In this document: piece after piece, positions 3,183-27,544 of the stretch
How the letters are laid out: every line of letters begins with the position of its first letter
How positions within the stretch are numbered: position 1 is the first letter of the stretch
NCBI GenBank assembly: GCA_009927275.1
Contig: RFNG01000045.1
Location: 1 to 36,918 of the forward strand
Length of the DNA: 36,918 nt
Origin: Sphingobacteriia bacterium
GTDB lineage: Bacteria > Bacteroidota > Bacteroidia > B-17B0 > Aurantibacillaceae
Direction of reading: 5' to 3'
The notes under the pieces: generated by a model
Told to the model about the DNA's origin: nothing
Databases searched by the model: none
What the model saw: the letters and a program-made list of their open reading frames with translations, nothing else
Position numbers and translations under genes: made by a program

Positions 3183-4136
3183 ATGCCAATTATAACTCCT
3201 AAGCCAGTTATCAATACCCTAAAGTTTGTCATTTTTATAACCTTGTTTTTAAGCTTATGCGGCTTATTTTTTAAATTGATGTACTGGCCCGGCGCAAGTG
3301 CGTTTTTTGCTGCCGGCGCGTTATTTTTTACACTGCTGTACATACCGCTTATTACCGTTCAGATTTGTTTAACACAACCGGATATTTGGAAACGTGTTTT
3401 AACCATATGCCAATCTGTAATTATAATGATACTGGGTATTGGATTTACATTTTCTTTTTTACGATTTCCGGGTGCGGCAACCTTGCTGCAACTTAACAAA
3501 GGGCTTATTTTAGGCTTGTTGTTGCCATACGCGCTGTATCATCTTTTTGTATCGTATAAACAGCCGGTTCAAAAAACCCATGCACGGGTTCTTTTAATAT
3601 ACTTTTTAGCTAATATGTTAACGGTGGTTTTACTTTCAGGATCTGGCAAAATTAGTATTCGCCCCATATTACAACAAACCCAAAAAGTTGAGCAGCAAGT
3701 GCGCGATAATAAAAATCGAAACTTGCAAATTATACAGTATTTAACCCCATTACAATTTAATAACAAGCCACGATTTATTGCTATGCGCAACATAACCAAT
3801 AAACTGTGGCAGCACACCCAGCAATTTAAAATTCATTTGGTAAACAGCGTAGATCAAAAAGCAATACCCGATACGGCGTGGTTTTCTGCTGTTGACATAG
3901 AACATAAACAAGATTATGAAAACACCCTAGCGCTTTTATTTTCTAATTTAAATGACACGGCAAATCCCTGTAATATAAAAGTTTTAAAACAGCATATACG
4001 CTGCTTTAATGATACATGCGCGCAAATTTATAATGCCATAAAAAAAGATGCAGCGCTTAAACCCATTCAAATTAATATTGAATCTATTAAAATGAGGACG
4101 GCAGTACAGAATCGTGGGAGCAGTATTATTTACTAG
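3183..4136 (+). CDS. GldL/GldM-like membrane sensor, N-terminal piece of a split gene
   Basis: The 317-residue frame has five predicted membrane helices (about 13-33, 39-62, 72-93, 106-125, 135-153), then a soluble helical region from 158. Twice it shows the F-x-x-[ML]-x-[WF]-P-G-A pattern (FKLMYWPGA at 30-38, FSFLRFPGA at 90-98), which resembles the membrane segment of GldL, the T9SS/gliding motor protein; this match is from memory. With the N terminus inside, five helices place the soluble region in the periplasm. Residues up to K303 look authentic; the last 14 are read out of frame, because adding one A to the AAAA at 4089-4092 joins it without a break to the frame at 4091-4288. The phosphatase frame follows. 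It is best read as the sensor half of one sensor-phosphatase. Confidence 0.6.
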
Positions 4137-4288
4137 AATCTCCGGCACTTTCAGTTTGTAATATAATAACCGATCTGCAAAACGAAATTTTAAATGCCGA
4201 ATACCAAGTATTATTAGAATTTGTAAACCAGGCCACGCAACCTTGCAAACACAACAGCAGTTTAAGCATTTATTACAGCATAATATAA
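4091..4288 (+). pseudogene. Middle piece of the split gene: GldM-like segment in another frame
   Basis: This frame is open only from 4091 to a TAA at 4286-4288 and has no start codon of its own that fits. It reads [20 protein letters not shown] and then continues as an amphipathic helix with LQNEILNAEYQVLLEFVNQ. The pattern WxxYxxxxxPxxxxxxxxxxLQxxxxxxE resembles the first periplasmic domain of GldM, where W, P, Q and E sit at the same spacing in the sequence I remember. It joins the upstream frame through one inserted base at 4089-4092 and the downstream phosphatase frame through one inserted base between about 4223 and 4250. Both joins have the same sign, as expected from two one-base deletions or two sequencing errors. 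Confidence 0.5.
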
Positions 4289-5298
4289 ATCATGTATTAC
4301 AAGAACAAGCGCAAAAGCTTAAGGATTTAAATACAGCCCACGAAAATCGTCAAAACACGCTTAATAGACAAACCAAAGAGTTACAAACGGTTAAAGACCA
4401 AAATACACTTATGATTTTGTCGATAATAATATTTTTAGGTTTAATTGCCTATGTTATATTTTCTAATATACAACGTAAACGACTCAATACAAAGCTACAC
4501 GCACAAAATCAAAAAATAGAATTTCAAAAAACTGAATTGCTTGAAAAGCAACATGAAATTTTAGATTCTATTACCTATGCGCGACGCTTGCAAGAAGCCA
4601 TTTTACCCAATAAACAAGCTATGGCATTGCATTTTAAACAATGTGAAATATATTATAAACCCAAAGCCATTGTGGCTGGTGATTTTTATTGGTTTGAGCA
4701 AAAACAAGATTGGATTTATATTGCAGTTGCCGATTGTACTGGCCATGGTGTGCCCGGCGCCATGGTATCAATGGTGGGTTATAATGCCTTGCAACGCGCT
4801 GTGTTTGAATTTAATTGTGTTGAACCCGGCGCCATTTTAGATAAAGCACGTGTTTTAATTGCAGAAACGTTTTCAAATCAAAAAACAGAAACCGTTAAAG
4901 ACGGCATGGACATTTCATTAGTGGCTATAAATAAAATTCAAAACACCGTACTTTGGGCTGGTGCGCATAATCCATTATGGACAATGGACATACATGGCTT
5001 ACATGAAATAAAAGCCACCAAACAAAGTGTAGGTTTTGCTTTTGATCCTAAACCATTTACAACACACGCCATCCCATACCAGGAAAACTTATATATATTT
5101 TTGTTTACCGATGGAATGCCGGATCAATTTGGGGGAGCAAAAGGTAAAAAAATGAAATACAAACAATTTTCTGAACTTTTAATGCAAACTACCCAAATTA
5201 AAAATGCTGTTGAAGTATTAGATCAAAAATTTAAAGAATGGATGCAACAATACGAGCAAATAGATGATGTTTGTGTAATTATATTGCAGTTGAAATAA
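4243..5298 (+). CDS. SpoIIE-type PPM serine/threonine phosphatase, C-terminal piece of the split gene
   Basis: From the first possible start, a TTG, the frame gives 351 residues: coiled coil 1-55, one TM helix about 56-74 (MILSIIIFLGLIAYVIF), a second coiled coil 75-110, then a complete PPM/SpoIIE domain. Metal-binding motifs are all present: GD in AGDFYW (145-150), DCTGHG (164-169), DG (221-222), FTDG (288-291) and the closing DD (341-342). Such phosphatases act on anti-sigma-factor antagonists or other phosphoproteins in the cytoplasm. The linker plus ITYARRLQEAILP start is typical of Bacteroidota members that carry an N-terminal sensor. The TTG start is weak and the upstream frame runs on, so I think this is the output half of a single gene from 3183 to 5298 interrupted by two indels. 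Confidence 0.85.
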   Translation: MQTQQQFKHLLQHNINHVLQEQAQKLKDLNTAHENRQNTLNRQTKELQTVKDQNTLMILSIIIFLGLIAYVIFSNIQRKRLNTKLHAQNQKIEFQKTELLEKQHEILDSITYARRLQEAILPNKQAMALHFKQCEIYYKPKAIVAGDFYWFEQKQDWIYIAVADCTGHGVPGAMVSMVGYNALQRAVFEFNCVEPGAILDKARVLIAETFSNQKTETVKDGMDISLVAINKIQNTVLWAGAHNPLWTMDIHGLHEIKATKQSVGFAFDPKPFTTHAIPYQENLYIFLFTDGMPDQFGGAKGKKMKYKQFSELLMQTTQIKNAVEVLDQKFKEWMQQYEQIDDVCVIILQLK

Positions 5299-27145: not shown

Positions 27146-27544
27146 ATGAAATATCGGATTTTACTTTTATTTTTTTGCTTTGATTTATATGTTTTTGCCC
27201 AGCGCATTCAAAATGCAAATTATTCAACGCTTGGGTACATTACCTCAGATGGTAAAGTACAAGATGCCAATTACCGTACGCTGGGCTATATTGCAACCGA
27301 TGGAAAGGTGCAAGATGCCAATTACCGTACGCTGGGGTATATTGGTTTTGATGGAAAGATACAAGACGTCAATTACCGTACACTAGGATACATTCAAGAT
27401 TCAAAAGTACAGGACAACAACTACCGTACAATAGGTTATTTTGACAATGGAAGATTACAAGACGCAAACTATAAAACCATTGGTTACTTTGAGGGCATAA
27501 AAGCGCGATGGGCCGCATCGGCAGTTTTCTTTTTTTTCTTTTAA
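27146..27544 (+). CDS. Small secreted protein of six 16-17-residue repeats (beta-flower-like)
   Basis: The 132 residues begin with a signal peptide (MKYRILLLFFCFDLYVFAQ), then six tandem repeats from about 21 to 119 with the consensus [VIL]QD-x-NY-[RK]-T-[LI]-GY-[IF] plus a G-K/R turn, then a tail KARWAASAVFFFFF. Each repeat looks like a two-strand hairpin. The sequence is like the Bacteroidota family that I remember being annotated as 5-fold beta-flower protein. The first three repeats are nearly identical in DNA, so they expanded recently. The hydrophobic last residues are a conserved-looking oddity that may insert in a membrane. Function is unknown. It lies between paaD and a RemB/Wzi-like gene. 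Confidence 0.75.
   Translation: MKYRILLLFFCFDLYVFAQRIQNANYSTLGYITSDGKVQDANYRTLGYIATDGKVQDANYRTLGYIGFDGKIQDVNYRTLGYIQDSKVQDNNYRTIGYFDNGRLQDANYKTIGYFEGIKARWAASAVFFFFF
27206..27502 (+). repeat. Tandem coding repeat, 51 then 48 bases
   Basis: Units begin at 27206, 27257, 27308, 27359, 27407 and 27455. The second and third units are almost identical over about 35 bases, the last three are shorter by one codon and more diverged. Confidence 0.85.

Follow-up and report, generated by a model that had tools for sequence, protein, structure and literature searches.

The window, a 36,918-nucleotide stretch of bacterial DNA, carries at positions 3183-5298 a gene that is spread over three reading frames. 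We consider it likely that the gene encodes a Bacteroidota receptor phosphatase and has decayed in this copy; in the intact protein, a signal received by a GldM D1-like domain would be relayed by a coiled coil to a SpoIIE phosphatase. Intact copies in relatives suggest that parts of the type IX secretion motor have been reused as sensors, and the fusion belongs to a wider family of GldL/GldM-like receptors, of which it forms one arm and whose outputs are PadR and SpoIIE.

We built a fusion profile of 714 positions from 11 intact homologues and searched it against all six frames of the window. Three frames matched consecutive segments of the profile: frame 0 (profile 9-306, window 3213-4091, 150 bits, E = 6e-45), a middle frame (profile 308-360, window 4094-4252, 30 bits, E = 1e-8), and a third frame (profile 370-713, window 4282-5289, 404 bits, E = 1e-121). 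Because the runner-up in the whole window scored only 2.9 bits, this three-frame match lies far above chance, and it bears out the initial annotation of the locus as one split gene read across two one-base shifts. Frame 0 is open to position 4136, the middle frame from 4091 to ~4285, and the third frame from ~4162 to 5298; each frame change is minus one (or plus two), in the same direction. The codon-position composition of all three pieces is coding-like, a property that cannot date the shifts. The gene is flanked by a clpX-like gene on the opposite strand and by a ribonucleotide reductase gene (names assigned by eye from the list of open reading frames). Elsewhere in the window, positions 27146-27544 encode a protein of 132 residues made of DANYRTLGYI-like repeats with a run of Phe at its end. 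The parts of the split gene, all on the + strand, are as follows:

3183-4091, +: frame-0 piece, covering both GldL-like hairpins, the helix that resembles the one of GldM, and the greater part of D1 (fusion profile 9-306, 150 bits)
3204-3377, +: GldL-like hairpin 1, helices 1-2, motif FKLMYWPGA at residue 30 (hydropathy and motif; GldL_N in homologues)
3390-3551, +: GldL-like hairpin 2, helices 3-4, motif FSFLRFPGA at residue 90 (helix 3 by hydropathy)
3576-3647, +: helix 5, equivalent of the GldM transmembrane helix (hydropathy; the PDB GldM match of the family profile begins there)
3648-4091, +: GldM D1-like domain, first part (Pfam and fold of homologues; fusion profile)
4094-4252, +: middle-frame piece, end of D1, W/Q/E pattern (fusion profile, E = 1e-8; TIGR03517, E = 9.8e-4)
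4282-4395, +: coiled-coil region ahead of helix 6, third frame (fusion profile; long helix in the homologue model)
4396-4476, +: helix 6 (hydropathy)
4477-4674, +: cytoplasmic helical linker and phosphatase lead-in (fusion profile; homologue model)
4675-5298, +: SpoIIE/PPM phosphatase domain, Pfam stretch 4714-5292 (Pfam, E = 4e-16; motifs)
4675, 4729, 4897, 5107, and 5257, +: starts of the SpoIIE/PPM motifs (motif reading)

The two F-x-x-x-x-[WF]-P-G-A motifs described initially are both present, at residues 30 and 90. Five N-terminal membrane helices had also been proposed; a simple hydropathy cut detected helices 1, 2, 3, and 5, whereas helix 4 is predicted from the AlphaFold model of a homologue, by alignment to which both this helix and the end point of hairpin 2 were placed. 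Hydropathy likewise recovered the proposed sixth helix at 4396-4476. We oriented the protein by its homology to GldL and GldM and by the known membrane topology of the motor, which predicts the N terminus inside, D1 outside, and the phosphatase inside. The coherent sensor-phosphatase topology of the initial annotation is supported on this basis, rather than by a topology predictor.

Neither of the two long open reading frames of the window gave a Pfam or NCBIfam match to GldL or GldM at E values up to 1, so the assignment of the window's sensor depends on homologues, together with the middle frame, where TIGR03517, a GldM model, gives a match unaided (E = 9.8e-4, 17.7 bits, under its cut-off of 180). 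In all ten fused homologues scanned, GldM_1st (the D1 domain of GldM, PF12081) exceeded its cut-off, with 38-76 bits versus 25; GldL_N (the transmembrane hairpin, PF22827) was over cut-off in five of the ten, below it in three, and without a match in two. A sensor profile of eight rows (six fused and two phosphatase-free sequences), compared with the PDB, matched PorM/GldM at E = 1e-15 and GldL at E = 8e-4; the best-scoring unrelated chain followed at 0.56. Since the GldM match begins in helix 5, this helix corresponds to the GldM helix, and helices 1-4 to two GldL-like hairpins. The models of whole proteins stayed below their cut-offs: TIGR03517 (cut-off 180) gave 31-44 bits for four fused homologues over profile positions 34-265 of 524, and the whole-GldL model TIGR03513 (cut-off 68.3 bits) gave at best 39 bits among ten family proteins, for a phosphatase-free one. 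Beyond D1, the fusions carry the coil, helix 6, and SpoIIE in place of the remaining GldM.

The AlphaFold model of the homologue L027 (the JACDDR010000074.1 protein; a monomer; mean pLDDT 78, pTM 0.49, 32 sequences) matched the PorM D1 structure 7cmg_A with a Z score of 22.3 (rmsd of 2.2 Å over 184 residues), tied with GldM 7sau_A (Z of 21.9), and its phosphatase part matched the SiaA PP2C domain 6k4e_A with a Z score of 24.1 (rmsd of 3.2 Å over 233 residues). The model contains an uninterrupted helix, residues 376-484, which would span helix 6 and the linker. Profile searches and the homologue model together show the sensor of the fusion to be homologous to both GldL and GldM, and the GldM-like domain first proposed from the window's W/P/Q/E pattern holds up in the homologues on both counts.

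Beyond the window's own genome, its GTDB family was represented by 86 genomes; the fusion occurs in 14 of them (G001, G010, G020, G021, G032, G034, G039, G041, G047, G051, G052, G054, G056, and G074) as a single open frame of 704-808 residues, three of the fusions having named records (JAJNBG010000008.1, JACDDR010000074.1, and JAEUTQ010000082.1). Neither outcome that would have told against the initial annotation was observed: profile searches of intact homologues recover GldL and GldM, and the gene of these 14 relatives is unbroken instead of being divided into a sensor gene and a separate phosphatase gene. The frame-0 protein was matched in 22 of 40 genomes of the same GTDB genus, its own included, and the sensor profile in 86 of 87 family genomes, a figure that includes true GldM and GldL. 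One further copy (G023) is truncated by the end of its contig; in G055 the sensor is interrupted by an in-frame stop, and a phosphatase was not found within the 5.5 kb fetched. The fused proteins at L115-L117 (780-808 residues) apparently have one additional hairpin N-terminal to the matched sensor; because each hairpin brings the chain back to the same side, the number of hairpins can vary. G057 holds a split version (L123:1048-4267), in which a GldL/GldM-like sensor of 416 residues is followed by a protein of 266 residues and then by a SpoIIE protein of 395 residues; in the D1 tree, the D1 of this sensor clusters with the fused ones.

Among 18 loci compared, the window included and with three of the pairs being one record fetched twice, the fusion had no conserved partner gene. 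Neighbours were shared only between identical or very closely related genomes, apart from a single protein family common to G020 and G074, and no gld gene was seen beside the fused gene among the neighbours of these loci. In a sample of the phylum, 394 other genomes gave no match at E = 1e-38; at most five candidates were scored per genome, so the conclusion goes no further than a scarcity of close relatives beyond the family. A search of 87 genomes, as many as in the family search, based on A3, an alignment of 32 rows (three fused, 27 phosphatase-free, and two phosphatase-only), returned mostly other SpoIIE genes because A3 includes the SpoIIE domain.

The phosphatase domain of the window scored 59.9 bits against SpoIIE (PF07228; cut-off 25, E = 4e-16), and SpoIIE was over the Pfam cut-off in all ten fused homologues scanned. 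Its acidic motifs, AGD, ADCTGHG, KDGMD, TDG, and QIDD, which include the metal-binding ones, are all retained, in agreement with the complete SpoIIE domain described initially. The SiaA model NF038263 (cut-off 700 bits) was missed, with 161 bits for the window and up to 195 for fused homologues. In the phosphatase tree, the domains of L116 and of L019, L118, and L119, all from fused proteins, branch far off, as if the phosphatase had been exchanged. The window's own genome holds five SpoIIE genes, the window gene counted, as well as true gldL and gldM, and searches for two further families returned one STAS match (PF01740) and one HATPase_c_2 match (PF13581). The output of the fusion phosphatase is likely a STAS protein with its RsbW-like kinase.

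GldM is a dimer, and we propose that this property would be put to use in the receptor. The intact protein begins with GldL-like hairpins, two in number or, apparently, three in some relatives; the helix corresponding to that of GldM and a periplasmic D1 come next, and from D1 the coiled coil leads back across the membrane to the cytoplasmic SpoIIE/PPM phosphatase. D1 may dimerise as in GldM, and an envelope signal would alter the D1 dimer; the coiled coil and helix 6 would transmit the change to a phosphatase dimer, which would dephosphorylate a STAS protein of the anti-anti-sigma type and so allow it to capture the RsbW-like kinase. The accessible parts of two published accounts describe two GldM helices in the motor (PMC8986121) and PPM phosphatases that are switched by coiled-coil linkers ordering the phosphatase dimer (PMC12143880).

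The hairpin motifs bear on whether such a protein is a receptor or a motor. The motif Lys, presumably the equivalent of the studied GldL residue K27, is retained in 14/14 and 13/14 fusions at the two aligned hairpins (at both in 13/14), and A3 retains the motif Lys and His at both hairpins in each of its 30 rows with a sensor. With the position of GldL E49 fixed by aligning the motif to GldL sequences, the equivalent residue is acidic in none of the 14 fusions at either aligned hairpin and in none of the 30 A3 rows; in the two window hairpins it is F and I. In GldL, according to the accessible part of the report by Vincent and colleagues, E49 is strictly conserved and required for secretion (PMC8986121). 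With the proton-coupling glutamate absent, the fusion looks, from its residues, like a receptor rather than a motor. A chain that unites GldL-like and GldM-like parts might itself act as a motor, powered by protons and driving the phosphatase by its rotation, but the loss from 14/14 fusions of a residue reported as essential for GldL (PMC8986121, accessible part) makes this very improbable. It is less far-fetched, though still unlikely in our view, that the receptor senses the motor directly, by joining GldL or GldM in a complex, and informs the phosphatase of motor load, assembly, or proton-motive force. The sensor's homology to both motor subunits, the motif Lys kept in both aligned hairpins of 13/14 fusions, and the true gldL and gldM of the same genome all speak for such co-assembly, although co-occurrence with GldM is uninformative because true GldM is found across the family. 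Against it stand the lost E49 equivalent, the replacement of GldM beyond D1, and the lack of a gld gene among the neighbours seen; the coupling to motor or secretion state suggested in the initial annotation stays hypothetical, with the same three points set against it.

For the window copy itself, we lean modestly towards decay over any other origin of its two shifts, and production of a single protein from the gene has probably ceased in its own genome. Both shifts fall within ~200 bases of a single gene, in 37 kb of DNA whose remaining genes show no obvious split when judged by eye. In the window motifs, His has changed to Tyr and to Arg in the two hairpins and K to S in the second, compared with K in 22/22 and H in 21/22 hairpins of the 11 intact fusions with two hairpins; these changes are only supportive of decay, because the unbroken L019, L116, and L117 deviate from the motif K/H too, with both K and H residues missing from the motifs of L117. 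The D1 tree places the window within a set of eight rows, seven of them fused (support 100/99), on an end branch of 2.44 versus 0.03-0.38 in those seven; its exact position is unsure, as the tree tool flags this row for its length and unusual composition. Its end branch in the phosphatase tree (bootstrap not settled) is 1.66 versus 0-0.41 in ten intact rows, which leave out the divergent L116 and L019/L118/L119. The branch lengths speak less clearly for decay in that the GldM of this genome, a 165-contig draft of 2.29 Mb, also has a long end branch (1.32 versus 0.33 and 0.47 in the two nearest). The genome being small and generally fast, relaxed constraint on the window copy is likely, short of proof.

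Errors of sequencing or assembly might instead account for the two shifts, with the cell carrying an unbroken gene, a reading we hold possible but somewhat doubtful. Apart from the shifts, the 682 matched residues are free of stops, the acidic phosphatase motifs are retained, the genome is a draft in 165 contigs, and L117, an unbroken relative, has changed motif residues as well; errors sit less well with two shifts in one gene where nothing else in 37 kb looks split by eye, with long branches in sensor and phosphatase alike, and with the broken G055 sensor (in-frame stop, no phosphatase in the fetched 5.5 kb). That two shifts run in the same direction could point to programmed frameshifting as the source of the full protein, yet two shifts would be needed and all 14 intact relatives use one frame, so we rate this as highly unlikely. 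Two separate adjacent genes, as the two long open reading frames listed might suggest, have a negligible probability given that the intact homologues are single open reading frames and that the middle frame holds the end of D1.

Decay of a fused receptor phosphatase thus remains the reading we prefer for the window, and its sensor has many relatives that lack the phosphatase. These phosphatase-free proteins are either bare sensors or carry ~80 additional N-terminal residues. Classed by profile position, 79 proteins in 79 named loci comprised 52 with the extra N terminus, 24 bare sensors, and 3 fusions. A PadR-like gene lay directly upstream (within 400 bases on the same strand) of 45/52 proteins with the extra N terminus, 1/24 bare sensors, and 0/3 fusions, and all 21 upstream genes sampled were PadR by Pfam. 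Many bare sensors are the second gene of a PadR-sensor operon. PadR was present at each of 40 picked phosphatase-free sensor loci (39 new ones and L122, together L168-L206 + L122, overlapping in part with the 79), at a distance of ~1-1.5 kb from the sensor in five (L177, L178, L180, L190, and L203). In nine of the 40 (L169, L183, L185, L189, L190, L192, L193, L200, and L202), a divergent SpoIIE gene encoding 448-477 residues with a GldL-like hairpin match adjoined PadR at 105-257 bases, a count in which a few contigs were too short to tell and two of the nine were known before the survey; the two of these proteins scanned by Pfam had GldL_N at or over cut-off together with SpoIIE. At L173:3127-4458, GldL-like hairpins are joined to a GAF domain in a gene divergent from the PadR-sensor pair.

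Many of the shorter PadR-linked sensors matched in their hairpin part only, and P0011 had no GldM_1st match; D1 is therefore not part of all PadR-linked sensors. The extra N-terminal domain matched HAAS/DUF1700 of Pfam in 0/20 proteins, and Foldseek found no PDB match to it at E up to 0.001, its weak hits being at 3.6 or worse, an outcome that does not count against a HAAS domain. At seven loci (L035, L036, L037, L038, L040, L041, and L044), a sensor of 467-506 residues with an apparent extra hairpin is directly followed by a bare sensor of 322-348 residues, and these tandem pairs resemble a two-subunit receptor. The window's own genome (G000) gave no PadR match at E up to 0.01, in a search that was positive in 14/14 control genomes, and contains no further sensor of the GldL/GldM-like receptor family besides true GldL and GldM.

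To our knowledge, it is for the most part an open question by which routes Bacteroidota monitor the condition of their envelope and of type IX secretion, the PorXY route being one known answer. In the literature searched, which contained no preprints and few subscription papers, no link of GldM or type IX secretion with SpoIIE and no GldL/GldM-PadR receptor was described, as judged from titles and the openings of abstracts. The initial annotation's view of the fusion as undescribed agrees with that search; the fusion that it described also proves to belong to a larger family. As a broader and quite speculative idea, Bacteroidota may have made GldL-GldM into a family of single-chain receptors without the proton-coupling glutamate. 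By joining the motor or mimicking it, these receptors would signal its state by way of interchangeable outputs, namely a fused SpoIIE, PadR, or the divergent SpoIIE gene with GldL hairpins. If true, subunits of a rotary motor would have been reused as signalling input, of which the literature searched holds no description. A receptor family assembled from motor components, which has intact members and whose output genes are evident, permits direct knock-out and interaction tests, and the main interest lies in the family exposed rather than in the single broken locus of the window.

Several known systems share features with these proteins. The phosphatase-free relatives resemble the HAAS-PadR dyad (PMC11237479) in having PadR upstream of a membrane-sensor protein with an N-terminal helical domain; they differ in their GldL/GldM-like sensor, which is absent from the accessible part of the published description (PMC11237479), and in an N-terminal domain that Pfam does not recognise as HAAS/DUF1700. 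With the RsbU-type phosphatases of the general stress response, the fusion shares a helical linker into the PPM domain (PMC12143880, accessible part), and its genome the STAS and HATPase_c_2 genes, but the fusion has a membrane sensor and its substrate is putative. SiaA and other transmembrane SpoIIE/PPM sensor phosphatases have the same cytoplasmic PPM domain, SiaA being the best fold match; in contrast to SiaA, the sensor of the fusion is GldL/GldM-like and its score falls short of the NCBIfam SiaA cut-off. The closest likeness on the sensor side is to the GldL-GldM (PorL-PorM) proton motor of type IX secretion, in the helix hairpins with their FK-x-x-HWPGA motif and in the GldM helix and D1. 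Unlike the motor, the fusion is one chain, without an E49 equivalent, the cytoplasmic part of GldL, or GldM beyond D1, and it joins these motor parts to SpoIIE.
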